Virus record (IMG/VR): IMGVR_UViG_3300044825_002573
Coordinates: 1 to 38,449 of that record
From: a virus
Strand: one strand, 5' to 3'
DNA length: 38,449 bases
The notes below the pieces were generated by a model. That model did not search any database. It was given only the letters and a program-made list of their open reading frames with translations, and was not told the DNA's origin. The translations under genes were made by a program, and so were the position numbers. The stretch's first letter is position 1; each line of letters starts with the position of its first letter. Positions 9,301 through 28,209 of the stretch are shown piece after piece.

Positions 9301-11267
9301 CCCGCCGCGAAATCGTCGCCCGCCGGGATCGCCCGGAGCATTTCGGCCTGCCAGTTGCCCGTGCCGTCGGCTGCCGCCTCGGCGCCGCGCTTGATCGCGT
9401 CGAACTGGGTCTTGGTGACCTTGAGCGTCTGGCCCGTCTTGAGCGTGACGGTGTAGAGCTTCTCTTCCTCTGCGCTCAGGTCGAGAACGTGATCGCTCGC
9501 CTCCTTCGCGGCCTTGCCCGTGTCGGCGATAGCCGGGGCGGCGTCCTTGTGCGCGGTCGCGACGCGCTTCGCCCCGTCTGCGGCGGTGTTGCTGGCATCG
9601 GCGCTCTCGTGCAGCGACGCGGAGAATGGCTTCACCACGCCCTTCGCCGCCTCCATCCGCTCCTTGAGCCCTGCAAGCTGCGTCTCGAGGTTCTTGTATT
9701 CCTTGCTGGCCTTTGTTGTTGCCTCTGACTCGAACCACCACAGCTTGTTCGAGTCGATGAGGTCCTGCATTTCCTTTTCGGTGTCACGGATCTGCTGGTT
9801 CAGCCCGCCGAAGGTGTTGTCGAGACCGCCGCTCCACCACAGGAACGCGTCGGCGACCGCACGCACCGCGGGTGCAAGGCCGTTCACGACTTCCGCGACA
9901 CCCGCCACCCAATCCTTGAAGCCGGACCGCATCAGCTCGGAATTGGCGCGCATCCACGAGAGCGACTCGTCGGTCACTTGCTGCGCGAGCGGGATCAGGT
10001 CGCGACCGATCGAGAGGCCGAGACCCTTCACGCCCGACTGCAACACCACGACTGAGTCGGAAAGGTTGTCGGCCGCCTTTGCATCCTTGTCGGTCCACGT
10101 AAGCCCGAGCTGCTCGGATGCGAGCGCGAGGTCGTTGATCTCCTCGCGCGTCATGGCGGCGAGCGGGAGGAAGTCCTGCGCCGAGCGGCCGAGGAGCTGC
10201 TGCGCGGCAGCCATCGTGTCCGCGCCGTCGCCGGCTGCCGCAAGCGCCTGGGTCGTCTCGGTGAGGAGCTGGCCCATCGGCTTGATCTGCCCATTCGCGT
10301 CGAACACCTCGACGCCGAGCTGAGCGAACGCCTTCGCGCTCTCGCTGCCGCTGTCCTTCGCATCCACGGCCGCCGTGGCGAGCTTCCGCATCCCCACCGC
10401 GAGCGTGTCTTGGCTTACTCCGGCGGTATCGGCCGCGAGCGCGTAGTGCGACAGCGACTCGACGGACGTGCTGGTCTTGATCGCGAGATCGTGAAACGCC
10501 TCACCGATGTGCGCGGCTTCCATCGTGAGCTTCACCGTCGCAGCACCGACGGTGCCCACACCGCCCGCGAACGCGCCGAACGCCAGGCCCGCCGAACGTG
10601 CCGCGTCGGCCATACCGGACAGGCTCGGCTTCAACCTTGCCCAGCGCTCTTCGGCCTTCTGCGTCTCGGCGGCAGCGTGCGAGATCGCCTCGCCGAGGTT
10701 GCGAACGCCGTCGCTCGTCTGCACCGCCGAAGCTGCCGCCGCCCGCTCCTGGTCGTCCAGCGCGGACAGCCCCTCCGCCGCCTGCACCGCCTTCCCGCGC
10801 ACCGTCGCGAGCGCCTGGTCGTGCTGCCGCTGCGCCGCCTCGAGCTGCAGCGTGGTGCGCGTGAGCAGCGTCTCCTCGTCGACGAGCCCGCGCTGCGCGT
10901 CGGCCTGGCGCTGGATCTCGGCGCGCACCATGCCGAAGCGCTCTTCGAGCAGCGCCTCCGCGCGCGCGAGGTCCTCGGTGATCTGGACGCCGGACTCCGC
11001 GGACTTGAAGGCGCTGACGAGGTTCGAGACGTCGGAGGCGATGGCGTCGAACTTGAGCGCTTGGATCTGCTTCTCGGCCTTCTCGGTCTCGCGCGCGAAC
11101 TGCTCGACCTCCTTCGCGAGCCCGGCGAGGCCGGTGTTGGCGGTCTGCTTCTCGACCTTCTCGAGCGCCGAGATGATCGAGTCGGAGACCTTCGCGAGGT
11201 CGCCCGCGAGCTTCTCCTGCGAGGCGCGCAGCTCGATCAGCGCGGATCCGAGGATCTGGTCACTCAC
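6306..11267 (-). CDS. Tail tape measure protein (1653 aa)
   Basis: The longest gene in the window, directly after the tail assembly chaperone pair, as in lambda-type siphoviruses. Residues 1-220 are almost continuous heptad-like coiled coil (KLAGDLAKVSDSIISALEKV). Residues about 225-700 resemble the tape-measure core (SVESLSHYALAADTAGVSQD). Residues about 785-820 form a Gly/Ala-rich hydrophobic segment (GTAAAIAAGVAGIGVGIAAA) that may insert into the membrane on infection. A Pro/Thr-rich linker lies near residues 1350-1392. A GTG start at 11267 overlaps the frameshift-product stop by 8 nt. Tape-measure length scales with tail length at about 0.15 nm per residue, predicting a tail near 250 nm. 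No lytic transglycosylase or peptidase motif was noticed. Confidence 0.9.
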   Translation of the reverse strand: MSDQILGSALIELRASQEKLAGDLAKVSDSIISALEKVEKQTANTGLAGLAKEVEQFARETEKAEKQIQALKFDAIASDVSNLVSAFKSAESGVQITEDLARAEALLEERFGMVRAEIQRQADAQRGLVDEETLLTRTTLQLEAAQRQHDQALATVRGKAVQAAEGLSALDDQERAAAASAVQTSDGVRNLGEAISHAAAETQKAEERWARLKPSLSGMADAARSAGLAFGAFAGGVGTVGAATVKLTMEAAHIGEAFHDLAIKTSTSVESLSHYALAADTAGVSQDTLAVGMRKLATAAVDAKDSGSESAKAFAQLGVEVFDANGQIKPMGQLLTETTQALAAAGDGADTMAAAQQLLGRSAQDFLPLAAMTREEINDLALASEQLGLTWTDKDAKAADNLSDSVVVLQSGVKGLGLSIGRDLIPLAQQVTDESLSWMRANSELMRSGFKDWVAGVAEVVNGLAPAVRAVADAFLWWSGGLDNTFGGLNQQIRDTEKEMQDLIDSNKLWWFESEATTKASKEYKNLETQLAGLKERMEAAKGVVKPFSASLHESADASNTAADGAKRVATAHKDAAPAIADTGKAAKEASDHVLDLSAEEEKLYTVTLKTGQTLKVTKTQFDAIKRGAEAAADGTGNWQAEMLRAIPAGDDFAAGIERTATAAEKTAPAIEDTATAADGWATTADAAGQVTDDFAKSLVDLAVSGGKAEDVLKSLGSSVLNDLTSSLTSGLGDMLKTGLSKAGNALAGGLADAISPGVTAAAEQVGASGAEALVGTMADGIASLAPDAIVGALGVGGTAAAIAAGVAGIGVGIAAAFGAFEGPDIQQQVARMLSKQIKKGFKDPEVFDAINAGLEDVGLFLSDGLGTLMVKAPKRLGLAVGEAWAQLGEDSSYQFSDGFYQDMKEHGTQLIHSSIADVLHVFYKDITDDVATGIQQSAVAAGTAIAKELGFVGDKAIKFAQQWSIAFIGMMQQAGKGADEILVALHRIDASLGTSQELIASFQRLQAEMIDAGVDMDALYAKINEQLKLITGKKMKVGNLEEVLAAVGGDATRALGVIENAMDLAGISIEKFSGGLSDVVLAISNDAGTAIREAGEDFRDFGNEADGTAEILRQKVLTALDDVIATAEELGYSSESIDAFKTAVSLISPEMMRSSEFVNALREDFARMAVESHMSVQELVDSIDPPLPEATRNAILAVNDLGKAIGDLTGAPLKNLKEVTDRMKQFGDEMYRSVVDAEGKVTKELTAFGKELIDEASTAISGMWAQMNEDGWVGLDEIGVMFDQLALLPVEALNDPAIQQATRDLLAKIGAMTGDAAIIAMANAETITQDMIDQGLAAYDEYKKAIEENPPEVPPPTTPDGQPAPTDPTQDPTAPATGAPPPQPIPPETTEGYQRLADTATEYAKAVLAGREAVEALSASTATHASAMLEALRPLIGEPGDGQGLADLNDILDRVLPQTLDDLTLAIAGATGDWKGGFDSARGAVLMLQQALDDLPTDKTITIHVQQDGAIDTSAVEIPTSHTGELIPGMPGSETLRLLEAQELVVPAETATTLPPSLVSALLSGEAFRLPADIVARVSPSVAVPRAQAGAAAATAQASGPAMAPGWRLVPVHEDALIDRALVRIERDVADGYVETGGGFRVHPLVRGRAGR

Positions 11268-11936
11268 CGCTCGCCACCGCCTTCCGCTTGCGGATCACCT
11301 TCGTCGGTTGCAGGTCGAGCTTCGGCGGGATCGGCCGCGAGACGCTCGCGCGTTCGGCCTGGCGACCGAGACGGCGCTGCAGCGACGAGCGAGCGCCCGG
11401 CTCCAGGTTCGGCGCGATCGTGGCCGTCATCATGTCGAGGGTGCGCTCCGCGGCGATCCCTTGGTGCGCGTTGAGGTACGCGAGCGCCTGCCGGACGGTG
11501 ACGCGCTTGCACTCGCGGTCGTGCCACCCGAAGGCAGCGGCGAGCCGGCCGCGGAGGCCGTCGAGGTGGAGCTCGTGGACGGGGCCGTCGTCGCCCTTCG
11601 CAGGCGCTCCGCCCTCCCCGCCGTCAGCAGCAAAGGGTCCACCTGCGCCACCCCCAGGAGCGTGACGTAGCCTTCGTAGAGGCGGATCGGGCGCTCGGCG
11701 AGCTTCGCCAGCGCTTCGGCCGGGACCGTGGGCGCGTAGAAGCGGAACGCCGACACCATCACCTCGGGGTGCGCGACGAGGTGTTCCGCGTCGAGCATGT
11801 GCTCGGCCTCCGGGCGCAGCCGGAGGAACGCGTCGATCGAGCCGTTCGGCACGTCGCGGAAGTGCCAGACGTCGTACGAGACGCCGTCCACGTCGATCTT
11901 GCCGGCCGGAATCGGGTCTGCGGTCGAGAGCTTCAC
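11260..11936 (-). CDS. Tail assembly chaperone long form made by programmed -1 frameshift (gpGT-like, 225 aa)
   Basis: From 11936 the ribosome reads the G-like frame for 102 codons to the heptamer C-CCT-TTG (plus-strand 11631-11637), slips back one base, and continues in the -1 frame to the stop at 11260. The -1 frame has no good independent start, and its sequence (HELHLDGLRGRLAAAFGWHD, RQALAYLNAHQGIAAERTLD, ending KVIRKRKAVASGE) looks like real protein, whereas the 0 frame past the site becomes Ser/Thr-rich junk. An SD-like GGGGGTGG ends about 10 nt before the heptamer and GC-rich sequence follows it; both could stimulate slippage. In siphoviruses gpG and gpGT are bound to the tape measure during tail assembly. 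Gene order and the frameshift mode match that family. Confidence 0.8.
11430..11936 (-). CDS. Tail assembly chaperone short form (gpG-like, 168 aa)
   Basis: Unshifted product of the same start. Residues 1-102 (MKLSTADPIPAGKIDVDGVS, VWHFRDVPNGSIDAFLRLRP, LAKLAERPIRLYEGYVTLLG) are the shared chaperone domain. Beyond the slippery site the 0 frame gives a low-complexity Ser/Thr/Arg tail before TGA at 11430. In lambda most ribosomes make the short form and a few per cent make the fusion. The gene follows the major tail protein after a strong hairpin and precedes the tape measure, the invariant position of this pair. The tail is unusually long for a gpG, so the functional part is probably the first 105 residues. 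Confidence 0.8.
   Translation of the reverse strand: MKLSTADPIPAGKIDVDGVSYDVWHFRDVPNGSIDAFLRLRPEAEHMLDAEHLVAHPEVMVSAFRFYAPTVPAEALAKLAERPIRLYEGYVTLLGVAQVDPLLLTAGRAERLRRATTAPSTSSTSTASAAGSPLPSGGTTASASASPSGRRSRTSTRTKGSPRSAPST
11631..11637 (-). other. Slippery heptamer for -1 ribosomal frameshifting
   Basis: On the minus strand the sequence is CCCTTTG read as C-CCT-TTG in the 0 frame, an exact X-XXY-YYZ site. Re-pairing of both tRNAs in the -1 frame gives CCC-TTT. It lies exactly where coding character moves from the 0 frame to the -1 frame. It would join ...VAQVDPL to AADGGEGG.... Confidence 0.82.
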
Positions 11937-11953
11937 AACACCTCAAGGGGAAG

Positions 11954-11983
11954 GCCGGGCGGCCCACGGGGGAGCCGCCCGGC
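11954..11983 (-). terminator. Strong GC hairpin between major tail protein and tail chaperone genes (possible attenuating terminator)
   Basis: A perfect 10-bp inverted repeat (GCCGGGCGGC / GCCGCCCGGC) with a 10-nt loop occupies the 64-nt gap between the two genes. In the minus orientation it is followed only by CTTCCCCTT, a weak U-tract. It may be a partial terminator or an mRNA-stabilising element that keeps abundant tail-tube message above the downstream tail genes. The structure is seen; the effect is inferred. Confidence 0.5.
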
Positions 11984-12000
11984 GGTGGGTACGTCAGAGA

Positions 12001-12576
12001 TCAGCTCGCGGGCGTGGCGGTCTCGTCGCCGATCACGTAGAGCGCCGGCTGGCCGTCCGGGTCGAGATCGTCCTCGGACGGGAACGCCTCGAACGTCGCC
12101 TCGAACACCCGCTGGTTGTCGAGCGAGTACTCGATGGTCGGCGCGTTGTCGGTCGCCACGACCTTGAAGAACCGGACCCACTTGTTCCGGTCCGCGGTGG
12201 GGCCGGCGCCGGTAGCCGGCTTGATCAGGAACGACTTCGCCACCGAAAGCAGGTCGAGCCCGATGTTCTGGCCGACCACGATCTTCTTCTTGGTCGAATC
12301 CACCGCGTCCGTCTGGATCTCGGTCCCGGGGAGGAACGTGAGGTAGGTCTCCAGCGCGTCCTCCGCGAGCATGACCTTGATGGTCGCCCCGCGGCCGTTG
12401 ATGTTCTTCTTGACCGGCGTGGTGCCGCGCTGATCGACCACGATGGGAACCGTGGTGGTGGTGGGGGTGTACGACCCGCCGCCCTTCGTGTAGCCGAGCG
12501 TGGTCTCGGCGCCCTCGGCCCCCATGTAGAAGTACGCGGGGTTCGCGAACAGGTTGTCGATCGACTGCAGAGCCAT
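12001..12576 (-). CDS. Major tail (tube) protein (191 aa)
   Basis: Forms the hexameric rings of the tail tube. The 191-residue length is typical. The sequence opens MALQSIDNLFANPAYFYMGA and alternates beta strands (GRGATIKVMLAEDALETYLT, KKKIVVGQNIGLDLLSVAKS) with a late motif VRFFKVVATDNAPTIEYSLD, the pattern of the tail-tube beta-sandwich fold. It lies between the tail terminator and the chaperone pair, the standard place. AAAGGAAGGTGA before ATG is a strong ribosome-binding site, and a small hairpin sits just upstream, both fitting high expression. No Ig-like C-terminal decoration is present. Confidence 0.82.
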   Translation of the reverse strand: MALQSIDNLFANPAYFYMGAEGAETTLGYTKGGGSYTPTTTTVPIVVDQRGTTPVKKNINGRGATIKVMLAEDALETYLTFLPGTEIQTDAVDSTKKKIVVGQNIGLDLLSVAKSFLIKPATGAGPTADRNKWVRFFKVVATDNAPTIEYSLDNQRVFEATFEAFPSEDDLDPDGQPALYVIGDETATPAS

Positions 12577-12591
12577 GCGTCACCTTCCTTT

Positions 12592-12608
12592 GCCCGGTCC
12601 AACCGGGC
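12592..12608 (-). other. Small perfect hairpin upstream of the major tail protein ribosome-binding site
   Basis: GCCCGGT-CCA-ACCGGGC, a 7-bp stem with a 3-nt loop, lies in the gap before the major tail gene and a few nucleotides before its Shine-Dalgarno. There is no T-tract in the minus direction, so a 5' mRNA stabiliser or processing site is more likely than a terminator. Confidence 0.4.
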
Positions 12609-12624
12609 TTGAGACCCGGTCGGA

Positions 12625-13053
12625 TCATCCGGCCGGTTGGACAAGCACCATGAGGGTCACCACGCGCGCCCGGACGTTGGTCTCGGGGTCGTACACGGTG
12701 CCGGAAACGCGATCGACCAGGACGCGGATCGTGCAATCGCCCACCGCCCCGCCGATGCCGTTGTAGATCTCGGTCACCAGGTCCGTGACCTGGCGCAGCC
12801 GCGTCGAGGACGAGTCCTCGATCACGACGTCCCACTGACACGCCCACCCGCTCGTCTTGCCCTGGTCGACGTGCGCCGCCGTGCGGTCGGCCATGTGCCA
12901 GGCCATGCGGGGCACGTCGGTGACGCGCATGGGGAACTCGTCCGCCATCGACGCCACCGGCACGATGAGGCGCAGCGCGACGGCCTCCGCAGAGGCCCCG
13001 ACGGTCGCCGCCTCGCGCAGCTCGGCCTGGATCGCGTCTTCGTCAACCAGCAC
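12625..13053 (-). CDS. Tail terminator / tail completion protein (142 aa)
   Basis: Caps the tail tube and contacts the connector in siphoviruses. Evidence is length, position directly before the major tail protein and after the gp10-like protein, and the alpha/beta sequence: an N-terminal helical part (IQAELREAATVGASAEAVAL), VTDVPRMAWHMAD, then strands with WDVVIEDSSSTRLRQVTDLV and a terminal RVVTLMVLVQ. GTG start at 13053 overlaps the upstream gene by 11 nt. Motif support is modest; synteny carries the call. Confidence 0.65.
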   Translation of the reverse strand: MLVDEDAIQAELREAATVGASAEAVALRLIVPVASMADEFPMRVTDVPRMAWHMADRTAAHVDQGKTSGWACQWDVVIEDSSSTRLRQVTDLVTEIYNGIGGAVGDCTIRVLVDRVSGTVYDPETNVRARVVTLMVLVQPAG

Positions 13054-13588
13054 GGGCGTAGGTCTCCGCGTAGATGGATTGCAGCTCGGGCCACGAGGTC
13101 TTCATGGTCGGCACCCACGCCGGACGCTTCATCTCTTCCTCGAGCCAGCGCGCGTACTTCACGCTCGGACCGCTCGGGCCGATCTGCGCGATCACGTCGC
13201 CGGCCGCGTTCGTGCCGATGCGAAACGACACCGTCTTGGACAGCGCGCCGGTGAGCCTCCGCGGCGCCTGTCCGCGCGCGCTCGCCTGGTGAACGCGCCC
13301 GCGGACCTTCCACCCGCCGATCGGCTCGGCCATCGGGATGACCTTGCCGTTGCGCGTGAAGAACCGGACCGTCCCGTCTGCGCCGTACGAGCCCGCGCCG
13401 AAGCTGCTGGAGTCGAGCGGCCAGAGGTGCCCCTTGTAGAAGTCGTAGCGCCGGCCAGCGCCGCCACCACCCTCGGCCAGCGCATCCTTGACGAGCCCCT
13501 GCAGATGCAGCGCCGACGCCTTGAGCGCCAGCGCCGAGCGACGCTTGACGCCTGCGAAGAACGCCGCGGTCTGTGTCCAGGTCGCCAC
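13043..13588 (-). CDS. HK97 gp10-like head-tail joining / neck protein (181 aa)
   Basis: GTG start at 13588, one base after the stop of the upstream gene. The N-terminal helix (FFAGVKRRSALALKASALHL) and the C-terminal segment YARWLEEEMKRPAWVPTMKT follow the gp10/phage neck family pattern, in which a 'Y(A)xxLEhG...RPFhxPA' motif is typical. Between them lies RRLTGALSKTVSFRIG with a following strand, also characteristic. It is placed between head closure and tail terminator genes as expected. It probably helps join the filled head to the preformed tail. Confidence 0.72.
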   Translation of the reverse strand: MATWTQTAAFFAGVKRRSALALKASALHLQGLVKDALAEGGGGAGRRYDFYKGHLWPLDSSSFGAGSYGADGTVRFFTRNGKVIPMAEPIGGWKVRGRVHQASARGQAPRRLTGALSKTVSFRIGTNAAGDVIAQIGPSGPSVKYARWLEEEMKRPAWVPTMKTSWPELQSIYAETYARAG

Positions 13589-13589
13589 G

Positions 13590-13937
13590 TCACACCCCTC
13601 CCGGCGTGATGCCCACGCGCAGGTGGTGCGCCCGCCCCGGTCCCGACGTCCACGGATCGCGCGCCTCGACGCGGTAGCGCGTGCCCGCGATCGTGAGCCG
13701 GTCGCCCTTCGCCACGTCCGCCGAGATCGCGGTGACCGTCATGTACGACGCCACCTCGAAGTCCCCCGGCAGCGTGCGCTTGAGCCGGTCCGTAAGCGGC
13801 TGAGGCGGCGCGCAGGGCTCGGCCGCGGTGACCGTGGTCCACGTCGGCACGACGGCGCCTGAGCCCGTCGGGCCCGGCCCGGTGGACGTGTCGCGCTCGA
13901 TGAGGGCGCGCGCGGAAAGGATGCGGGGGGAGGGCAT
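13590..13937 (-). CDS. Head closure / head-tail adaptor protein (115 aa)
   Basis: Matches the small beta-barrel head closure family (SPP1 gp16/HK97 gp7-like) in size, order and content: an early VVPTWTTVTAAEP strand pair, LPGDFEVASYMTVTAISADV, KGDRLTIAGTRYRVEARDP and a terminal HHLRVGITPGGV. The 'GDRLxIxGxxYRVxxxxxW' string is the strongest family-like signal. The start overlaps the upstream stop as TGATG. It would plug the portal after packaging and receive the tail. Confidence 0.72.
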   Translation of the reverse strand: MPSPRILSARALIERDTSTGPGPTGSGAVVPTWTTVTAAEPCAPPQPLTDRLKRTLPGDFEVASYMTVTAISADVAKGDRLTIAGTRYRVEARDPWTSGPGRAHHLRVGITPGGV

Positions 13938-14074
13938 CAGCCGGCGGCTCCAACGAGCAGCCCGACGAGGGCGAACCCGCCCGCCGCGACGACGGCGCCG
14001 ATCACGACGAGCAGCGCCACGGTGAGCGGCGAGGGGCGCCGGTAGAAGCGGCGCGAGTAGCGGTCGGTGTTCAT
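13937..14074 (-). CDS. Small single-pass membrane protein (45 aa)
   Basis: Begins MNTDRYSRRFYRRPSPLTVA and continues as one uninterrupted hydrophobic segment, residues about 17-43 (ALLVVIGAVVAAGGFALVGL...). A basic N-terminus followed by a membrane helix suggests an inner-membrane peptide with the N-terminus inside. It is locked by a 4-nt overlap to the MopE-like gene and a 1-nt overlap to the head closure gene. It belongs to a three-gene insertion of envelope-type proteins in the connector module. Family not recognised. Confidence 0.6.
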   Translation of the reverse strand: MNTDRYSRRFYRRPSPLTVALLVVIGAVVAAGGFALVGLLVGAAG

Positions 14075-15414
14075 GGGAACAGCCTCCGAAGCACCTGGAG
14101 CGCCTGGGCGCCTGCGGATGCGGGGCGGGGGCGCGACAGCGTCTGCACCAGGTCCCCGCCCGAGCAGTCCTGGTCGATGCCGTCGTTCGCGACCTCGGTG
14201 GCGCCCGGGTTCACACCGGAGCTGCCGTCGTCGCAGTCGACGCCGTGGCTCGCGCAGAAGATCGAGTCCGTCGAGCCGTACCCGTCCCCGTCCGCGTCCG
14301 CGCACGATCCCCACGCGGCGTAGTGCGTGCCATCGGCCATCATGACGAGCGGGTTGTCGGTGGCGTCGCCGTCTTGGTCGACGTCGAGCCCGGTGATGGC
14401 GAAAAGCGGCGTGCTGCCCCCGAGCGGCGTGCTGCCGATGTCGTAGGTGGCGTTCGTGCTGACGCTCGTCGGCGCGGTCGCGCTGTTCGAGACGCGCACC
14501 GTGCCGTCTGCCTTGTTGACCCACCACCCGCGCCGGAGGCTGCCCGTCGGGTCCCAATCGCCGAGGGGAATCAGGTCGATCACCCCCGCGTCGGTGACGG
14601 TCACGGTCCCAGCGATCGGCGTCGAGAGGATGTAGGTGTGCGAGTTCGACTGCCGCTTGACCGTTCCAATGCACGCCGTCGCGGATAGAGCGAAGGGCGG
14701 GTAGAAGTAGCTACCAGTGTTCATGACGGCGGATGCCGGTTGCGACGTAAAGGCGTACGACGTGCCGCTTGCGTAGCCGCGAACGTGAGCCTGCCCGCTG
14801 CTGTACTCGCCCGCGAGCGAACAATAGAAGTTCGAGTTGATCGAGGTGCCGACCGCCTCGACGTCGCCGGCCACGGGCGAGGAGCCCGCGATGTTCCCGA
14901 GCGAGAAAGAACCAATCGAGAAGTTGAACAGCCGCGTTGTCGAGCAGCCGGGACAGATGTTCGTGACCTGCCACACCTTGTCCGGGGACGTCGGCGTGAT
15001 CGTGCCGCCGTTGCCCTGCCCGGACGCCGAGGCGTTGCTTTCCAGCGTCCACGAGGCGAGGTTCGAGAGCGCCGCCGACTGGATCCACGTGCCGCTTCCG
15101 CTGACGAGCGCGGTTGTCGAGTTGCACCCCACGCCGAGGATCTTCTCCATCAACGTCGGGCTGGCCGGCGTGTGCGTCGTCGCCGTGATCGCCGAGGCGC
15201 TGACCTCCAGCTTCGTGAGCGCGTTAGTGAGCGACGTGCCGCGCCGGTTGATGACGAGCGCCGTATCGGAGTCGCACGTCGCCGGATAGGCGAGCGTCTC
15301 CGTCCGCCCGCTGCCCGAGAGCGTGCCGCCGTGCCAGGCATCGGCCGCCCCCGCGGGCGCCGGAAGCGCGACCGCCAGCGCCAGCAAGGTCGCAAGGATG
15401 CGACGCCTGCTCAC
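14071..15414 (-). CDS. Exported protein with MopE-like C-terminal metal-binding motif (447 aa)
   Basis: GTG at 15414 overlaps the upstream stop (GTGA); a GTG three codons earlier is possible. The N-terminus SRRRILATLLALAVALPAPAGA is a signal peptide with a twin-Arg flavour. Residues about 25-330 are Ser/Thr/Gly-rich beta sequence with scattered cysteines. Near the C-terminus come DVDQDGDATDN and CADADGDGYG, then HGVDCDDGSSGVNPGATE and NDGIDQDCSGG: the 'DxDGDG...DCDD...PGAxE...DxDC' pattern of the putative metal-binding motif of MopE-like secreted proteins (PF11617 type), common in Myxococcota. The motif predicts calcium or copper binding outside the cytoplasm. It lies inside head-tail connector genes, where exported proteins are not expected. 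Role unknown; lysogenic conversion and virion decoration are both possible. Confidence 0.78.
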   Translation of the reverse strand: MSRRRILATLLALAVALPAPAGAADAWHGGTLSGSGRTETLAYPATCDSDTALVINRRGTSLTNALTKLEVSASAITATTHTPASPTLMEKILGVGCNSTTALVSGSGTWIQSAALSNLASWTLESNASASGQGNGGTITPTSPDKVWQVTNICPGCSTTRLFNFSIGSFSLGNIAGSSPVAGDVEAVGTSINSNFYCSLAGEYSSGQAHVRGYASGTSYAFTSQPASAVMNTGSYFYPPFALSATACIGTVKRQSNSHTYILSTPIAGTVTVTDAGVIDLIPLGDWDPTGSLRRGWWVNKADGTVRVSNSATAPTSVSTNATYDIGSTPLGGSTPLFAITGLDVDQDGDATDNPLVMMADGTHYAAWGSCADADGDGYGSTDSIFCASHGVDCDDGSSGVNPGATEVANDGIDQDCSGGDLVQTLSRPRPASAGAQALQVLRRLFP

Positions 15415-15923
15415 TGCGCGCACCCGGCCGTGATCGACACGCGGCCCGCCGCGCAGGTGTCACACGTCGCGTCGAACGTGATGCTGTCGGCGGTGGCCGA
15501 CCCGGCCTTGCAGAAGAACTCGGTCCCGCCCGGTGGAATCCGGCCCGAACCGCCATCCGGCCCGGTGAAGCCCAGATCGTACGTGCGCGAGAGGTTCGTC
15601 GCCTTGGCGTAGAGGGCGACGTTCCCGGTGCAGCCCGCGTCCACGGTCGTCGAGGAGTTCGACACCGCCGAGTAGGCCGACTTGGTGCTCGCCGCGGGGG
15701 CGATGCACTGGAGTCGCGCGTCGGTCGCCGCCGTCCCGATCGAGCCGAGGTTCACGGTCGAGCCGGAGACGTCGAGCCCGGCGCCGCCCAGCGTGCACGT
15801 GCCGTCGCCGTTGTCGCCGCAGAGCGTCACGACGCTCGATCGTACAGAGCTGATCGCTCGATCCTCGGCGCGAGCGCCGACGGCTAGGGCGAGGAGTGCG
15901 ATCGTCAGGAGTGCTCGCTTCAT
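15411..15923 (-). CDS. Exported cysteine-rich protein of unknown function (170 aa)
   Basis: GAGGTGACGACC-ATG gives a clear start at 15923. MKRALLTIALLALAVGARA is a textbook signal peptide with a cut predicted before ED. The mature part has eight cysteines, first at C35 and C43 in LCGDNGDGTCTLGG (a DxNxDG calcium-loop-like stretch), later FFCKAGSATADS and ATCDTCAAG, consistent with disulphides outside the cytoplasm. It follows the first connector gene and overlaps the MopE-like gene by 4 nt, so the two are coupled and may act together at the cell surface. No family recognised. Confidence 0.7.
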   Translation of the reverse strand: MKRALLTIALLALAVGARAEDRAISSVRSSVVTLCGDNGDGTCTLGGAGLDVSGSTVNLGSIGTAATDARLQCIAPAASTKSAYSAVSNSSTTVDAGCTGNVALYAKATNLSRTYDLGFTGPDGGSGRIPPGGTEFFCKAGSATADSITFDATCDTCAAGRVSITAGCAQ

Positions 15924-15928
15924 GGTCG

Positions 15929-16597
15929 TCACCTCAGCCACACGTTCGAGCGCGCGCGGCCGTTCTCGAGGGTCATCCGGCTCGGCGCCGAGAGCTGGCT
16001 CTCGAGGTCGCCGAAGTTCTGGTTCACGTACGAGTAGCCACCGGCGCTCTCGCTCGAGAGGCCCGCGGCGGGGATGCGGTTCATCGCGAGCGCCACGAGC
16101 TCGGCGACCAGGGCCGCGTACTCGGCCGGGAACTCGCCGTCCTCGTAGCCCGCCGTGTAGGTCACCTGGACGCACCGCAGGATCCCGGGGAAGCCGGGGT
16201 CGTAGACGATGGTCGCCGGCCCCTCGTCGTCGAGGTCCACGTACCGCGCCGATGAGGCGAGCGCGGTCGCTGACGCGAAGCTCCGGCCAGCATCGGTCGC
16301 GATCTTCACCGTGACCGGGTTGTCGTCGTCCTCGATCACCGGCCAGCGGCGCAGCGGGAGCAGCGTCGAGGCGACGCGGCGGCCGGCGCCAAGCCCGAGG
16401 TAGGCGCCGAAGTCGGCGCTGCCGCCCGGGTCGCTCGACACGCCGGGGCCGTCGTAGACCTCGACCTGGCGCGCGCGCGCGTAGAGCGAGCACTCGCGCA
16501 TGACGCGGTCCTCGATCGCTGGCACGAGCGCCTCGAGCTGCTCGGTGGGCGACGCGCCGATGATCGTGGCGACCTGGTCAGCGGTGAGGATTGCCAT
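15929..16597 (-). CDS. Head-tail connector protein, gp6-like (222 aa)
   Basis: A head-tail connector that binds below the portal. The sequence begins MAILTADQVATIIGASPTEQ with an early helix-rich part, and continues with SLYARARQVEVYDGPG, RRWPVIEDDDNPVTVKIATD, then VTYTAGYEDGEFPAEYAALV and AMNRIPAAGLSSES. A 'VxYxAGYxDxxxPxxhxxAhxxhV' stretch is the hallmark of this connector family. TGATG links it to the preceding small gene. It is three genes further from the head closure gene than usual because of the exported-protein insertion. Confidence 0.8.
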   Translation of the reverse strand: MAILTADQVATIIGASPTEQLEALVPAIEDRVMRECSLYARARQVEVYDGPGVSSDPGGSADFGAYLGLGAGRRVASTLLPLRRWPVIEDDDNPVTVKIATDAGRSFASATALASSARYVDLDDEGPATIVYDPGFPGILRCVQVTYTAGYEDGEFPAEYAALVAELVALAMNRIPAAGLSSESAGGYSYVNQNFGDLESQLSAPSRMTLENGRARSNVWLR

Positions 16598-16800
16598 CAC
16601 TTCGTCTCGTAGTTCCGTGCCATCCGGTCCACGCCTCGCCAGGGTCGACGCTCGCGCACGCCGGGGTGACCGGCCGTGGTGGTTGTCGACTCCGCCGAGC
16701 CGGGCACCGGCGTGGTGCTGCGGCCCGGGGCGCCGCCAGCAGGCGCAACGTCACGCTCGGCCGTGGCCGGTGGTCGCGTGGATTCGTTGCGGTTCTGCAT
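16597..16800 (-). CDS. Small disordered basic protein downstream of capsid gene (67 aa)
   Basis: The product (MQNRNESTRPPATAERDVAP ... GVRERRPWRGVDRMARNYETK) is rich in Pro, Ala, Thr, Gly and Arg with few hydrophobics, so it is probably disordered. AAGGGG about 9 nt before ATG is an acceptable ribosome-binding site. The stop shares bases with the next start (TGATG). A short gene between capsid and connector is often a decoration, scaffolding or neck accessory. None of these can be shown here. Confidence 0.5.
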   Translation of the reverse strand: MQNRNESTRPPATAERDVAPAGGAPGRSTTPVPGSAESTTTTAGHPGVRERRPWRGVDRMARNYETK

Positions 16801-16839
16801 GGCGGGCGCCCCTTCGCTTCCGTCTGTGGTCGGCCTGGA

Positions 16840-18165
16840 TCAGCCGGTGATGCCGCTCAGCACGCACACCGCGTCCGACTGCGCGACCTGGCCGTCGTGG
16901 CCCATGGTCCCGCGGATGTAGGTGCTGTTCTGCTTCGCCGCCGCGTGCTCCGACGGGAAGATGTTGAGGTCCTCGCGGGTGCCGGCGTAGTACGCCGCCT
17001 TGCCCGCCATGAGGTAGATCGCGGACGGGTCCGACTCCGTCGCGGTTCCCTCGAGCCCCGGCAGCACGATCCCGGGGATGCCCGCCAGGGTGAAGTCCAT
17101 CGGGCGCACGGTCGGCCCGACGGCGCCCACCGTGGTCATCGGGGTGGTCTCGAGCCGGAAGAACATCGGCCGGCCCACGTCGTCCTCGATGAGCTGGCAG
17201 ACCTCCTTCATCGACTGGTTCATGACCCACACCAGCCCGTCTTCCATCGGCGACTCGGTCCACTCGTCGCCGAGGGTGTTGAGGGCGCGGATCAGGTGCC
17301 GCCAGTTCACGGCGCCGTTGACCGCGACCTCCTTCGAGTAGGAGCCGTTCTCGATGCCGAGCGGCTCACCCGAACCGGTGCCCGCGCCGGTCGCGTACTG
17401 CAGGAGCTGCTGCCGCTTCATCTGGCGGCCGATCTCGCGGAAGATCGTCTCCATCAGCGGGCCGTTCGCGTCGCGAATGGTCTCGTTCGGCACGATGATG
17501 GAGCCGAAGAGCTCGTTCGCCGTGAGGGTGACGTTCGCGATCGCGATGTCTTCCGGCTCGTGGCTGGCGCCGCGCGTGTGCTTGACGACCGTCGGCGTCG
17601 AGCTGGTGAGCTTCGGCCAGCGCACCATCGCCTGGGGCATCGGCACCACCTGGGCGAAGTCCAGAAAGCGCGACATCAGGTAGCGCTGGAGGATGAAGTC
17701 GGTCGCGTACGCGGTGATGACGAGGTTCGCGTGCGACGCGTCGCTGATCGTCTTGCTGGTGAGCTTGCCCTCGTCCACGAGCTTCTGGACCTGCTCGGCG
17801 AAGGCGCCGTGCTCGATGGCGCGGTTGACCGAGGCGAAGGTCTTCTCGGCCGAGAGCACGCGCACGCGCTTCTGGCCGGTCTCGTCGACCTGCATGCGGA
17901 ACAGGTCGCCCAGCGCCCGCTTCTCCTCGTACTTCGCGCGGGTCGGGAAGGTCTTCTCCGCTACCCCCTCGGGCAGCAGGTCGGGCCGCACCAGCGCGGC
18001 GCCGAGCTTCTCGCTCTTGGCCTTCGCGGCCTCGGCGCTCATGCCGCTCTTGGCGAGCATGTCGGCCATCTGGTCCTGGATGAACTTGACCATCCCCTCG
18101 AGGCCGGTGGGGATGTCGTACTCCTTGGCGATCTCGGCGATCGTCCGGTCCGGCATTGCAGTCAT
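16840..18165 (-). CDS. HK97-fold major capsid protein (441 aa)
   Basis: ATG at 18165 has GGGAG at good spacing. Residues about 1-120 form a charged helical delta-like domain (LEGMVKFIQDQMADMLAKSG), probably scaffold removed by the protease. The fold follows: FLDFAQVVPMPQAMVRWPKL, NVTLTANELFGSIIVPNETI, MKRQQLLQYATGAGTGSGEP (the E-loop/spine to P-domain run), NTLGDEWTESPMEDGLVWVM, and a final AAKQNSTYIRGTMGHDGQVA strand. The 'LLxGxGxGxPxGI' string is typical of phage_capsid family members. It forms the icosahedral shell. It is preceded by protease and portal, the canonical order. Confidence 0.92.
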   Translation of the reverse strand: MTAMPDRTIAEIAKEYDIPTGLEGMVKFIQDQMADMLAKSGMSAEAAKAKSEKLGAALVRPDLLPEGVAEKTFPTRAKYEEKRALGDLFRMQVDETGQKRVRVLSAEKTFASVNRAIEHGAFAEQVQKLVDEGKLTSKTISDASHANLVITAYATDFILQRYLMSRFLDFAQVVPMPQAMVRWPKLTSSTPTVVKHTRGASHEPEDIAIANVTLTANELFGSIIVPNETIRDANGPLMETIFREIGRQMKRQQLLQYATGAGTGSGEPLGIENGSYSKEVAVNGAVNWRHLIRALNTLGDEWTESPMEDGLVWVMNQSMKEVCQLIEDDVGRPMFFRLETTPMTTVGAVGPTVRPMDFTLAGIPGIVLPGLEGTATESDPSAIYLMAGKAAYYAGTREDLNIFPSEHAAAKQNSTYIRGTMGHDGQVAQSDAVCVLSGITG

Positions 18166-18195
18166 GGTGGTTGCTCCCGTCTCTCGGCCGGCGCG

Positions 18196-19674
18196 TCAAA
18201 TGCGCACGATGCCGAGGTGCTTCTCGCGTCCCGCGGTGAATCCCGCTCGGAGGACGCGCTCCATCAGCCCCGCGTCCATCGCTGGATTCGGGGGCGCTGC
18301 CGCACTGCCGGCGGGTTCGGCGTCCTTGGCGACGGGGGCCGGGTCGGCCGTCGCCTCACTGGACGCGGGGGCGGCCTTGGTGCAGCCGCACGACTTCGTG
18401 TTGAGCGCCGATGCCTTGTCCGCTTCGACCTGCTTCCAGATCGTCACGTACGAGTCCTCGACGTAGCGGCGCGTGTCGACGAGGCCCTTGCGCACCTCGG
18501 CCGCGAAGCTCGCCATGGTCATCGGGGCGTCGCCCTCGTCTGGCTCAGGGGGCTCGGCGGCGGACTCCATCCGCGCGCAGCACGCCTCCATCGATGCGCA
18601 CGCCGCGGTGAGCCGCGAGACCGTGGCCTCGAGGATTCCGGCCAGCGCGCCGATCGATCCGGCGAGCGCCGAGAGGCGGGTCTCGAGGGCGGAGGCTTCG
18701 GGGTCGGTGAGCTTCTCGCGCCGGCGGAACGCCTCGCGCATCTCCGCCTCGGTGAACGTCTTCCCACCGCCCGCGGGCACCGGCTCGTCACCCTTCGCAG
18801 CCGCCGGCTCCGGCTCGCCCGCTTTCTCGGTTGGCTGACCAACCGATTCGGGCGCGGACGACTTGGCCGTCAGGTCGAAGCCGTCATCCTCGACGGCGGA
18901 CGGCAGCGCCGCGGCGAGCAGCGAGCGGACCCGCTCGGGCGCCTTGTCGGCGGGGACACACCCCACGCAGATCGGGTCCTCGGTGCCAAGGATCGATCGG
19001 CGGAACCGCTCGAGCGGCTCACCGTTGCCGAGCTTCTCGCGCGCCAGGTCCAGCACGCGCTTGACGGGCCAGTCCGGCGAGCCCACGAGGCCCGCCCGCT
19101 GGATCTCCGCGCCGGGGTTCGCCGGGATGCCGACCGGGCTCCACTCGTAGAGCTCGCTCGTGACGATGTCGATGCCGCTGATCCACCGGCCCGCGTTGCG
19201 CGCGGTGAGCTCATCCTCGGTGAGCAGCGAGTCCGCGAGCTGCTTCCACGAAACGATCCGAAAGCCCTGGGAGGCCGCGTTCACGTAGCCGTCGCGGCAC
19301 AGCGCGAACGCGAGCTCGGCCTCGCCGTGGCCCTGCTCGGCCAGGCTCGCAAACTGCGCCTCCGCCCACGTCACCATGACGCCGTCGGCGCCCTTCTCCT
19401 TCTTGAGCTTGATCGTCTTGGCGATCGGGAACGACCACGACTGGTGCCCCCAGAAGACCACCGGGTTCTTCTGGTAGTTCGTGGTGTCGATGCCGCGCTG
19501 GCGCACGATGTCGCCGTCGCGGTCGCGGATCTCCTTCGAGATGATGAACCGGAGCACCCGGTCCTCGTTCGAGACGACCTTCACCTCGAAGCCGGCGCTC
19601 GACGCGACCGCCTTGTAGATGAGCTGGCCGGTGTGCTTGTCGACGTCGGCCTGCATTGGAATCACGCTCGCCAT
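18196..19674 (-). CDS. Prohead (U35-type) protease with long C-terminal extension (492 aa)
   Basis: Residues about 30-210 are the caudoviral prohead protease: ISKEIRDRDGDIVRQRGI, NYQKNPVVFWGHQSWSFPI with the probable catalytic His77, and SELYEWSPVGIPANPGAEI near the end. The catalytic serine should be in the ASQGFRIVSW/ISGIDIVTS segment. The protein continues for about 280 residues with an acidic Pro/Ala/Glu linker, a helix run EAEMREAFRRREKL, cysteine-rich pieces (CASMEACCARMES, SCGCTKAA) and an Ala/Pro tail. A protease of 200-250 residues is usual, so the extension may be a fused scaffold. The start overlaps the portal stop by one base. Confidence 0.85.
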   Translation of the reverse strand: MASVIPMQADVDKHTGQLIYKAVASSAGFEVKVVSNEDRVLRFIISKEIRDRDGDIVRQRGIDTTNYQKNPVVFWGHQSWSFPIAKTIKLKKEKGADGVMVTWAEAQFASLAEQGHGEAELAFALCRDGYVNAASQGFRIVSWKQLADSLLTEDELTARNAGRWISGIDIVTSELYEWSPVGIPANPGAEIQRAGLVGSPDWPVKRVLDLAREKLGNGEPLERFRRSILGTEDPICVGCVPADKAPERVRSLLAAALPSAVEDDGFDLTAKSSAPESVGQPTEKAGEPEPAAAKGDEPVPAGGGKTFTEAEMREAFRRREKLTDPEASALETRLSALAGSIGALAGILEATVSRLTAACASMEACCARMESAAEPPEPDEGDAPMTMASFAAEVRKGLVDTRRYVEDSYVTIWKQVEADKASALNTKSCGCTKAAPASSEATADPAPVAKDAEPAGSAAAPPNPAMDAGLMERVLRAGFTAGREKHLGIVRI

Positions 19675-22064
19675 CACGCCCCCTTCACGACCGCCGCGAT
19701 GGTGCAGCGGCAGTTGCAAATTTCCCCGGGGCCGGCGCTCGGGTCGCCCGGATACTTGAGCCCGTTCGAGAACTCGCCCTCGACGTCGACCGTCTCGCCG
19801 TCGATCCGGTGCGAGTCGCGCACGTGCTCATCGCGCGCGGAGAGCCACATCTTCGACTCGACCAGCCCCTCGTCCTTTGCGTCCTCGAGCACGAGCTGCT
19901 GCGAGCGCCCGAACGCCGTGCCGATCTCGGTCCGCGCGATCCGCGCGGCGCGGTAGCCGGGCATGACCGCGTCGGTGTCCTCGGTCTGGTCGGACCACGA
20001 GCCGAACACCGTGCGCAGGTCGCGCATGATCTCGGAGGTGGTCTTCTCGTCCGCCACGCCGTCCCGGATCACCGCGGAGAGGAGCTGCGCCGACGTGTCC
20101 GTGATGTCCGCGGCGGTCTGGGTGACGTGGGTCTCGAGCCAGGCCGTGACCTTGGGGCTCTCGACGCTCCACGAGAGCCCGAGCTGATTCGCCAGCAGGT
20201 CCCCGCCGTCGCTCGCCGCGGTACGCGCGATCGGGCGCAGGGTCTCGGCCAGGTGGTCCCGCTCGCCGGGAATGTCGAACCCGCCAGGCTCGTCCTTCCC
20301 CATCTTGAAGACGGCCAGCCACTCGCCCTTGCGCTCGACCTCGGCGAACCAGCGGAGCACCTTCGCGCGCGAGGCGCCGTGGAACTTCGCGCCAAGCGCC
20401 TCGATGTGGGGCTCCATCGCGGGCAGCACGCGCGCCGCCTGGGTGCGGAAGAACGAGTCGAGGATCTTGGTAGCGCGCTTGGTGTGGTCGTCCTGGGGCT
20501 TGATCTGCTTCGCCCAGAAGTCCGCGCGCTTCTCGTCGGTGTCGAGCTGCTCGGACGTCGGGTGCGTCACCGTGCGCCGGACGACCGGCGCCGGCGGCAG
20601 AGCCCGGACCTCGATCGGATCCGTCACGACCGGGAGCGCCGCGATCTGCTTCGCGAGCCAGCCCTGCATCTCGGCCGAGACCGACGGCGCGAGCTCCTTC
20701 GCGATCTCCGCCGCGGTGCTCGCCGACACGCGCGCGTTGGCGAGCGGGATGCCGCCCGCGCTCGCGAGAGGCGCCCGCTCGTCGCCTTCGGGGCCTTCGA
20801 TGGTCGGCTGGCCGACCAGCTTGAGCGACTGGTTCCGTGTGGTGAGCCCGGCCTTGAAGAGCTCGGTGGCCGCGCGCAGCAGCCAGTCCCGGTCGCCCTT
20901 GATCGCGCTGTCCCGCTCGAGGCGAAGCCGCACGCCGGTGGGCTGGATCGCGTTCAGCTCGCCGACGATGTCCCGGTTGAGCGCGCCCCACAGGTTCGTG
21001 GCGAGCGGCTCGAGGGTCGCGGCGCCGTAGCGATCGACCTCGGTCTCGAGCGTCGCGCGCGCCGGATAGCTCTCGGTGTGGCCGTGCAGCAGCGCCGACG
21101 TGCCGAGGATCTCGAACAGGTTGTCCCGGCTCAGGTTGAGCTGCTCGATGAGCTGGAACTGCTCGGCCGAGAAGCCGAGCGTCGACACCGTGGTGCCGTC
21201 GGGCACGACGAGCGGGAGCCCCGTCTTGTCGATGCCCTGGTGGTGCAGCATCAGGTTCGCCCAGAACGTGGCGAGTGCCTTCGGCCGCTCCTTCCCGACG
21301 GGCAGCTTGGGCGCGAGGATGTAATCGGGGCGTGCGCGGTTATCGATCTCGGCGAGCCGCATTCGCAGCGACTTGTCGGTGATCGACTTCTCCCACAGCG
21401 CCGCGCGCAGCGGCGGCCAGCCGTAGAGCCCGCCGACGAGCGAGCGGGTGCGGAATAGCACCACGTCCTCGCGCGCGAAGCCGATCGCCTTCCCGCCAAA
21501 CCCGTCCGGGTAGTAGTTCACGCCATCGACGGGGCGCACCTTGCCGGCGACGAGCTTCGTGAGGTGCGGCAGAAGCGGCCAGAACTGGAGCTGGCGGCTG
21601 TCGTCGTCGCGGACCTTTGCCCACGCGCAGAAGCCCGCCGAGAGCTCCCAGCCCGCGGCGAGCCCGAGCATCTCGGGGCCGGTGTAGAGGCTGTTCGGAT
21701 CGTCCAGCGCTTCGAGGATGTAGTGATCCTCGATCACCACCGTTTCGCGGGCGCCGCGACGACGGGCCGTGAGGCGCATCGACTGCGCCAGCGTCTCGAT
21801 CTGGTTGGCCGTGAAGTTGATCGAGCTGAACGCGTGGCCGGTGTTGGCCTTCACGGCCTCGAGCGCGTTCCAGTCGTTCGCCTCGCCAAGCTGCCCACCG
21901 CGGGGGGTCGGCATCACCGACGAGAGCGGCGTGTTCGGGATCCGCGCGGTGGCGCTCGAGGTGAGCCGCTCGGCCGCTCGGCCCAGATACGCGAGCGCCG
22001 CCCGGGGCAGCGATGCCAGGGCGGCGAGGTCGTCGCGGGCGGTTCGAGTGGCGGGAGCGCGCAT
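19674..22064 (-). CDS. Portal protein fused to MuF-like head morphogenesis domain (796 aa)
   Basis: Residues about 55-430 are an HK97-type portal: WNALEAVKANTGHAFSSINF, WPLLPHLTKL, EDVVLFRTRSLVGGLYGWPP, ALATFWANLMLHHQGIDKTG, FEILGTSALL. The last 95 residues carry the MuF pattern: ARIARTEIGTAFGRSQQL, MWLSARDEHVRDSHRIDGET, and GPGEICNCRCTIAAV with the closing CxCRC cluster. The portal forms the DNA-entry dodecamer, and MuF proteins are minor head components often ejected or acting in early assembly. These are usually separate adjacent genes, and here one continuous frame covers both. It lies after the large terminase gene and an 82-nt gap with a strong hairpin. Confidence 0.88.
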   Translation of the reverse strand: MRAPATRTARDDLAALASLPRAALAYLGRAAERLTSSATARIPNTPLSSVMPTPRGGQLGEANDWNALEAVKANTGHAFSSINFTANQIETLAQSMRLTARRRGARETVVIEDHYILEALDDPNSLYTGPEMLGLAAGWELSAGFCAWAKVRDDDSRQLQFWPLLPHLTKLVAGKVRPVDGVNYYPDGFGGKAIGFAREDVVLFRTRSLVGGLYGWPPLRAALWEKSITDKSLRMRLAEIDNRARPDYILAPKLPVGKERPKALATFWANLMLHHQGIDKTGLPLVVPDGTTVSTLGFSAEQFQLIEQLNLSRDNLFEILGTSALLHGHTESYPARATLETEVDRYGAATLEPLATNLWGALNRDIVGELNAIQPTGVRLRLERDSAIKGDRDWLLRAATELFKAGLTTRNQSLKLVGQPTIEGPEGDERAPLASAGGIPLANARVSASTAAEIAKELAPSVSAEMQGWLAKQIAALPVVTDPIEVRALPPAPVVRRTVTHPTSEQLDTDEKRADFWAKQIKPQDDHTKRATKILDSFFRTQAARVLPAMEPHIEALGAKFHGASRAKVLRWFAEVERKGEWLAVFKMGKDEPGGFDIPGERDHLAETLRPIARTAASDGGDLLANQLGLSWSVESPKVTAWLETHVTQTAADITDTSAQLLSAVIRDGVADEKTTSEIMRDLRTVFGSWSDQTEDTDAVMPGYRAARIARTEIGTAFGRSQQLVLEDAKDEGLVESKMWLSARDEHVRDSHRIDGETVDVEGEFSNGLKYPGDPSAGPGEICNCRCTIAAVVKGA

Positions 22065-22146: not shown

Positions 22147-23460
22147 TCAGCGCCCGCGGGCCTTTAGGGCGTCGGCGAAGGCGGCCGAGCGAAGCACAAT
22201 TTCGGCCTCGATCTCGGCCTCCATCGCCTTCTCGTCGGGCGGCGTCATCACGTCGAAGTCGAACGACTGCGCCACCTGGCCGTAGCCGAGCTCGGCCCAC
22301 TTGTGGACCGCCAGCGCGAGCGCCATGACGCAGTCGTCGTGCAAGCCGCTCGGCGCCGTGTACCGAACGCCGGACGGCAGGTACTGGTAGCCGAACGCGA
22401 GCAGCTCGTTCAGGATCGGTCCTTCCGGGTACTGGATCTCCCGCCGCTGGATCGCGCGGCGCAGCCCCTCCATGAGCTGCTGCTTGGATGGGCTCGTGAA
22501 CTTGTAGCCCTCCACGTTCGGAACCCGCCGCTGGATCATCTCAACTACCGGATCCCCGACGCCCGTCGAGTCGATGAGGGCGGGCTCGCGCACGAGCTCG
22601 ACGATCCGGTCCTCAGTCTCCTTCCAGGGTCGCTGGAAGCGCTCGAAGCCGCCGCCGCACACCTGCCCCTCGGCGTTCAGTCCGATCATCACCGTCCAGT
22701 CCACGGACTTCGCGAGGTCGACACCCCAGGCCACGACCGGCCCGTCACCGAGCGGCCCCTTACAGTCGAGGATCGCGTCCTCGCCGAACGGGTTCCCGCC
22801 GTCCGCGGCCGGGACGCCCTCGTACTCCTGCGCGAACACTTCGGGCGGCATGTCGCGGCGAGCGCCGTCCACCTCGGACCGGTCCATGTGGGGGTTCGAG
22901 ATCGTCGGGAAGTTCCAGCTCATCCACTCCGGGTCGCCGGACTGGCCGCGGGCGTAGAGCGTCGTGAGGTACTGGCGCCCCTTCGGTGTCCCGAGGAACC
23001 AGGCATCGCCGCGCAGGTCGGTGAGCGTCGGCCGGATCGCGGCCGTCCACGCCTGCTCGAGGTTCTGGGCGCGGTCGCACTCGTCCACGATCGCGCGGGA
23101 GTACTTGCGCCCGCGGCCCGCGTCGGGATCCTCGAGCGACCAGAACTCGACGAGCCCGCGCATCGCCTCGCCGTTCGGTGCGCGTCCGCGTGTCACCAGC
23201 TCGATCCGGCGCTCCTGCACACTCACTCGCGACGTGATCGGCGCGAGCATGCGGACGATGTCGTCCCACACCTCGATGATGAACTTGTAGGTCGGCGCGA
23301 ACCAGGCGACCGGGAAGCCCTGCGCCGCCATCGTGACGGCGCGCTCTTGGCCCAGGATCGTCTTGCCGAAGCGCCGGCCGCAGCGCAGGACCTTAAACCG
23401 CGCCGGATGGTCCGCCACCAACTGCTGGTTCGGGTGGAGCCCCGGCACTTCGATCTGCAC
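22147..23460 (-). CDS. terL: Terminase large subunit (437 aa)
   Basis: The packaging motor ATPase and nuclease. Walker A is RCGRRFGKT (residues 26-34), Walker B is SRAIVDECD (acidic pair D126/E127), and the coupling motif is FLGTPKG (155-161). The RNase H-like nuclease shows WGVDLAKS (D248), LIDSTGVGD (D297) and GLHDDCVMALALA (D375/D376). All catalytic residues are intact and the length is normal. GTG start at 23460 overlaps the small subunit gene by 68 nt; slightly later GTGs are possible starts. It cuts concatemeric DNA and drives it through the portal encoded next. Confidence 0.95.
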   Translation of the reverse strand: MQIEVPGLHPNQQLVADHPARFKVLRCGRRFGKTILGQERAVTMAAQGFPVAWFAPTYKFIIEVWDDIVRMLAPITSRVSVQERRIELVTRGRAPNGEAMRGLVEFWSLEDPDAGRGRKYSRAIVDECDRAQNLEQAWTAAIRPTLTDLRGDAWFLGTPKGRQYLTTLYARGQSGDPEWMSWNFPTISNPHMDRSEVDGARRDMPPEVFAQEYEGVPAADGGNPFGEDAILDCKGPLGDGPVVAWGVDLAKSVDWTVMIGLNAEGQVCGGGFERFQRPWKETEDRIVELVREPALIDSTGVGDPVVEMIQRRVPNVEGYKFTSPSKQQLMEGLRRAIQRREIQYPEGPILNELLAFGYQYLPSGVRYTAPSGLHDDCVMALALAVHKWAELGYGQVAQSFDFDVMTPPDEKAMEAEIEAEIVLRSAAFADALKARGR

Positions 23461-27895: not shown

Positions 27896-28209
27896 GCCGC
27901 CACCGCCCTTTCCGCCGCTCGCTCCGCGGCCCGGATCTCCTCGCGGGTGACGCGCGCCACGGGGCGCGTGCGACCTCGACGGTTGACGTAGACCTCGGCC
28001 GATCCGTAGATGCGAGCCGCGAAGTCGGCCGCCATCCGAGCCTCGAGCTCGGTGTCGCGGGTGAGGAAGTCGTCGCCGCAGCCGGGCCAGAAGACGAGAT
28101 AGGTAGCGGGGAAGCGGAACGGAGCTACACTCAGCCCGTCTCCGGAAGTACCGTCTCGGGGCTCGGCGTCCGTCAGGACGTCGAGCCTCTTCTGCTCCTG
28201 GCAGGTCAC
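27892..28209 (-). CDS. Unknown phage protein (105 aa)
   Basis: GTG start at 28209 forms a GTGA overlap with the SbcC stop. The middle ATYLVFWPGCGDDFLTRDTE is folded-looking, followed by the helical AARIYGSAEVYVNRRGRTRP and an Ala/Glu/Arg helix to the end. It is probably co-translated with SbcC and could be an accessory to it. No recognised domain. Confidence 0.55.
   Translation of the reverse strand: MTCQEQKRLDVLTDAEPRDGTSGDGLSVAPFRFPATYLVFWPGCGDDFLTRDTELEARMAADFAARIYGSAEVYVNRRGRTRPVARVTREEIRAAERAAERAVAA

Follow-up and report, generated by a model that had tools for sequence, protein, structure and literature searches.

Three genes appear to have been inserted as a cassette between the head-tail adaptor gene and the head-closure gene of a siphovirus-type late operon in an uncultured phage, and comparison with the layouts of related phages supports this conclusion well. 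Our preferred explanation is that the cassette represents late, Sec-exported, moron-like cargo that would act at the envelope. This explanation is tentative, and we estimate its probability as somewhat short of even.

Late operon and cassette genes

The operon occupies the minus strand of the window, i.e., the whole 38,449-base stretch of DNA that was analyzed, in the order terminase, portal-MuF, protease-matched gene, capsid, adaptor, cassette, head closure, Neck1-like gene, further neck gene, tail tube and tape measure; the neck region has 65-75% GC. At its upstream end are the terminase (22147-23460), a single 796-aa ORF in which Portal and MuF domains are fused (19674-22064), a gene matching phage head proteases (18196-19719) and the capsid (16840-18165). 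The upstream flank of the insertion is a gp6-like head-tail adaptor (15929..16600; phrog_442, E = 7e-10). The downstream flank is a head-closure (Hc1)-like gene (13590..13937) that precedes a Neck1/tail-completion-like gene (13043..13588). The matches of these two genes are weak (PF05354, E = 0.0011, PF05521, E = 0.0055, phrog_763 and phrog_82 for the former; phrog_5, E = 0.008, for the latter). The tail-tube family protein (12001..12576; phrog_2175, E = 5e-30) has a relative in Bacillus phage KLEB27-1 that is annotated as 'major tail protein'. All of these genes are on the minus strand. A portal-MuF fusion is also annotated in Arthrobacter phage Kumotta, and the best phage match of the terminase is at 34%, in Halorubrum phage Hardycor1. 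Elsewhere on this strand, SbcC-like (839 aa) and SbcD-like (386 aa) subunits are encoded together (28206-31824). PADLOC detected nothing.

The 1,991 bp between the adaptor and head-closure genes hold three genes, all on the minus strand and located where the first-pass annotation had described a coupled set. Gene 1 (15411..15923) encodes 170 aa with 8 Cys and begins with the predicted signal peptide MKRALLTIALLALAVGARA, which would be cleaved before ED. Its strong ribosome site, AGGTGA, spans the last codon and stop of the adaptor gene, and its ATG follows 5 nt further on. Gene 2 (14071..15414) encodes a Ser/Thr-rich protein of 447 aa with 10 Cys, a predicted signal peptide ending in LPAPAGA, with cleavage before AD, and a C-terminal PF11617 (Cu-binding_MopE) motif. 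Its GTG at 15414 overlaps the stop of gene 1 (GTGA); this start is more likely than the GTG at 15423, and the signal peptide is kept with either. Gene 3 (13937..14074) encodes a 45-aa protein with a cationic N-terminus and a single membrane span, as had been proposed. It overlaps gene 2 in ATGA, and its TGA overlaps the head-closure ATG in TGATG, such that the overlaps within the cassette and into head closure are all 1-4 nt.

Each of the three genes has a GC3 of about 0.9, similar to that of the neighboring genes. In genes 1 and 2, GC is lower at the first codon position and higher at the second, in keeping with their Ser/Thr-rich composition. We considered a chimeric assembly and thought it unlikely, given this GC3 and the way in which the cassette overlaps or lies close to the flanking genes on either side. 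In positions 12500-17000, a consensus scan that has low power at 70% GC gave no match to a sigma-70-type promoter or a terminator. The layout thus far described is consistent with the earlier proposal that the cassette is made together with virions, and we infer that it is expressed alongside the virion genes.

The same site in related phages

For comparison, we aligned the tail tube with three phage relatives, which led to 80 viral loci, and we added annotated phages. Enough upstream sequence was available for 54 distinct layouts. In each of these, the four genes before the tube were taken by position, rather than by individual homology, to be the adaptor, head closure, Neck1 and the next neck gene. 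On this basis, the median gap from adaptor to head closure is 0 bp, versus 1,991 bp in the window, and the cassette is absent from the interval. No layout among the 54 has a signal-peptide ORF between these two genes. Only two have a gap above 100 bp, namely L073 and L060 (690 and 723 bp), and the larger gap, in L060, falls where the similarly organized L057 carries a 233-aa ORF.

Two individual relatives show the same arrangement. In L011, which is the closest by tube identity (46%), 1 bp separates adaptor from head closure. In the terminase relative L004 (49%), extended as L092, the adaptor (phrog_442, E = 5e-25) overlaps head closure (phrog_501, E = 7e-6) by 4 nt. The neck module had been said to be normally free of cargo, and these empty sites bear this out for the interval between adaptor and head closure. 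Because the relatives are distant, what the comparison reveals is that the window departs from the common layout by an insertion, and not how old that insertion is. L004 also has an 1826-aa ORF that starts with a portal and contains repeated CGTGxGGFxxGNDCAEGHG segments (11182-16662), and the ORF after it, of 519 aa (16659-18218), carries a similar one.

Export signals, cysteines and homologues

We evaluated signal peptides using a rule-based test written for this analysis, which is distinct from SignalP. Among 20 products of the window, this test flags genes 1 and 2, as well as the membrane span of gene 3, and none of the 17 others; thus no other virion gene tested has a signal-peptide-like N-terminus. 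Both flagged N-termini have a charged n-region, a hydrophobic core and an AxA cleavage site. When the first 45 residues are shuffled, the observed score is attained in 0.5% of trials for gene 1 and 0.14% for gene 2. The signal peptides claimed for both proteins are upheld as predictions, as are the eight cysteines claimed for the first. A start-site error, as one form of the sequence error that the first-pass annotation feared might create false N-termini, is unlikely to be their source, because in gene 1 no further in-frame start occurs before codon 32, and in gene 2 none occurs before codon 91 except a TTG at codon 13, which falls inside the hydrophobic stretch. A lipobox Cys is absent from both proteins: the first Cys is at residue 35 in gene 1 and 47 in gene 2, and no Cys is near either cleavage site.

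Cysteine makes up 18 of the 617 residues in genes 1 and 2, compared to 32 of 6,036 (Fisher P = 2e-7) in the rest of the virion genes. The even counts of 8 and 10 match what would be expected of proteins that fold outside the cytoplasm. It might instead be supposed that genes 1 and 2 encode ordinary cytoplasmic virion proteins whose N-termini merely resemble signal peptides, given that they are coupled inside the connector operon. Gene 1 also matches a virion structural protein, phrog_2729, but at E = 0.37, which is at the level of chance. The complete set of n-region, hydrophobic core and AxA site at both N-termini, the Cys excess in both proteins and the fact that the comparator layouts do without such a protein argue against this idea, and we regard it as improbable.

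The test additionally flags two minus-strand genes that are outside the set of 20 products. One of these (36100-37014) encodes a GDSL-like hydrolase (PF13472, E = 3e-11) with a hydrophobic N-terminus, for which the phage collection yielded no relative. The other (740-994), which is close to where the tail cluster ends, encodes 84 aa that begin like a signal peptide and include a second hydrophobic stretch; it has no family match and is a possible lysis gene. This latter gene is relevant to the idea that the cassette is itself an accessory for lysis, which, as infection ends, would bind to the outer envelope or weaken it, with the 45-aa protein being holin- or spanin-like. Two proteins bearing export signals, encoded beside a small membrane protein in a late operon, would suit such a role. 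However, Pfam, PHROGs and NCBIfam gave no match to a lytic enzyme, holin or spanin, and the end of the tail cluster, where the separate signal/TM gene is found, is the more usual place for lysis genes. We therefore consider a lysis function for the cassette to be doubtful, to much the same degree as misread N-termini.

Database searches, which had been proposed for each protein, found no relative of gene 1 or gene 2 in viral contigs, in the phage collection or, by sequence, in the PDB; the body of gene 2 also had none in genome contigs. The cassette DNA matched phages only in short pieces (at most 3% of the query), and genes 1 and 2 are not homologous to one another. In Pfam, PHROGs and NCBIfam, genes 1-3 matched nothing beyond chance except for PF11617, and there was no match to a connector or decoration family. 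Because the collection scans use short exact peptides, they are sensitive to close relatives only, and distant relatives of genes 1 and 2 may exist. The capsid, portal-MuF and central-tail proteins yielded no relatives in viral contigs; the terminase yielded three there and none in genome contigs.

The PF11617 match in gene 2 (14155-14238) is the single real family-library match of the cassette (E = 2e-8; 34.7 bits, and 38.7 bits in a second scan, versus the Pfam cut-off of 27), and it reads DADGDGYGS...DCDDG...NDGIDQDC. A plasmid search with gene 2 matched this motif region and no other part, in Persicobacter (E = 3e-3); searched against phages, the region gave nothing better than E of about 3, which is no match. 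The motif is named for MopE of Methylococcus capsulatus (PMC3423442), a secreted, non-phage protein with which gene 2 shares only these 28 residues. The copper ligands of MopE are His132, His203 and kynurenine 130 (PMC3423442) rather than the Asp-rich repeat. The earlier description of gene 2 as MopE-like holds for the motif and does not extend beyond it; the Asp-rich DxDxDG pattern appears to resemble a calcium loop just as much.

Lysogenic conversion had been suggested previously, and export signals together with a motif that takes its name from a bacterial surface protein could fit a cassette that alters the host surface during lysogeny. Against this, there is no integrase among the window ORFs scanned, although the record may be a fragment, and no promoter of the cassette's own was matched in the consensus scan, which has little power at 70% GC. 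Lysogenic conversion is the least supported of the alternatives, and we consider it very unlikely.

Structure prediction was of limited use. AlphaFold models from single sequences had a mean pLDDT of 46 for gene 1 and 32.5 for gene 2, and the latter model was left unused. The C-terminal ~90 aa of gene 1 were modeled, weakly, as all-beta with eight strands; we do not rely on the weak structural matches of this model, which include 7dou, a phage cement protein, and small proteins of phages. These matches relate to the main alternative explanation, in which the proteins would be exported, folded with disulfides in the periplasm and, at lysis or later, bound to virions as a decoration or adhesion protein. 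The location of the cassette inside the head-neck operon, overlapping head closure, is also compatible with this explanation. However, the gene 1 model is poor, so the fold matches mean little, and the literature searched showed no precedent in tailed phages. We judge an externally added virion part to be unlikely, albeit ahead of misread N-termini and a lysis accessory. A two-compartment assembly, in which two disulfide-bonded proteins are exported in step with the neck proteins and joined to particles outside the cytoplasm, is slightly less probable again.

Proposed exported cargo and its possible role

Tailed-phage virions assemble in the cytoplasm, so proteins that are made with them and exported are most simply explained as cargo that acts at the envelope. 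In this moron-like explanation, the cassette would be translated with the late virion genes, and the products of genes 1 and 2 would be exported by Sec and processed by signal peptidase I, with disulfides probably forming outside the cytoplasm. Both would stay out of capsid and neck assembly, and would act at the periplasm or the surface of the infected cell. The most plausible action would be to bind or mask a surface structure, leading to superinfection exclusion or receptor protection; the proteins might perhaps be shed at lysis, and the 45-aa membrane protein may be a partner or anchor.

Cargo is favored by signal-peptide-like starts that occur on two adjacent genes but nowhere else among the virion genes tested, by a Cys excess, in even counts, confined to these two genes, by tight overlaps within the cassette and with head closure without a promoter or terminator match in the weak scan, and by the site being empty in the 54 related-tube layouts and L092. 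Several points count against it. Since the searches gave genes 1 and 2 no homologue, conservation of their signal peptides cannot be shown. Both lack a lipobox, unlike the mEpimmI exclusion lipoproteins described below. Moreover, translational coupling to virion genes with no promoter match of its own (in a weak scan) is unlike a classical moron, and two exported proteins, one of them 447 aa, are large for an exclusion system.

Exported exclusion proteins whose genes belong to a structural cluster have a precedent. In mEpimmI coliphages, the genes for Lpp021 and Lpp010, which are single lipoproteins with a lipobox, are located in the structural cluster and exclude related phages when expressed (PMC11893012). 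In view of this precedent, exclusion or receptor masking leads among the roles to consider, and we offer superinfection exclusion as a guess by analogy. In contrast to these tested proteins, the cassette has no lipobox and would provide two larger Cys-rich proteins and a membrane protein. Another comparison is with gp15 of phage HK97, which is reportedly one gene in the tail region. Like the cassette, gp15 is an extra gene among morphogenesis genes, whereas the cassette consists of three, located where the adaptor and head-closure genes meet, with no promoter match of its own in the weak scan. PMC10883804, citing Cumby et al. 2012, describes the gp15 moron as blocking DNA injection by other phages. 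Finally, lambdoid prophages carry periplasmic SodC, an exported metalloprotein borne by a phage (PMC2569942), but SodC is an enzyme with a known activity and bacterial homologues, and it has no homology with the cassette proteins.

Exported cargo in a structural cluster is of a known kind; what is new here is the identity of the proteins and the site that they occupy. If the cassette is indeed exported cargo, then the adaptor/head-closure junction, which is free of signal-peptide genes in all layouts compared, can accept translationally coupled genes that act at the envelope, and the cassette would add orphan proteins to the candidates for a role in superinfection exclusion or in binding to surfaces. 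If the products of genes 1 and 2 are instead found on virions, then the assembly of tailed phages would reach beyond the cytoplasm.
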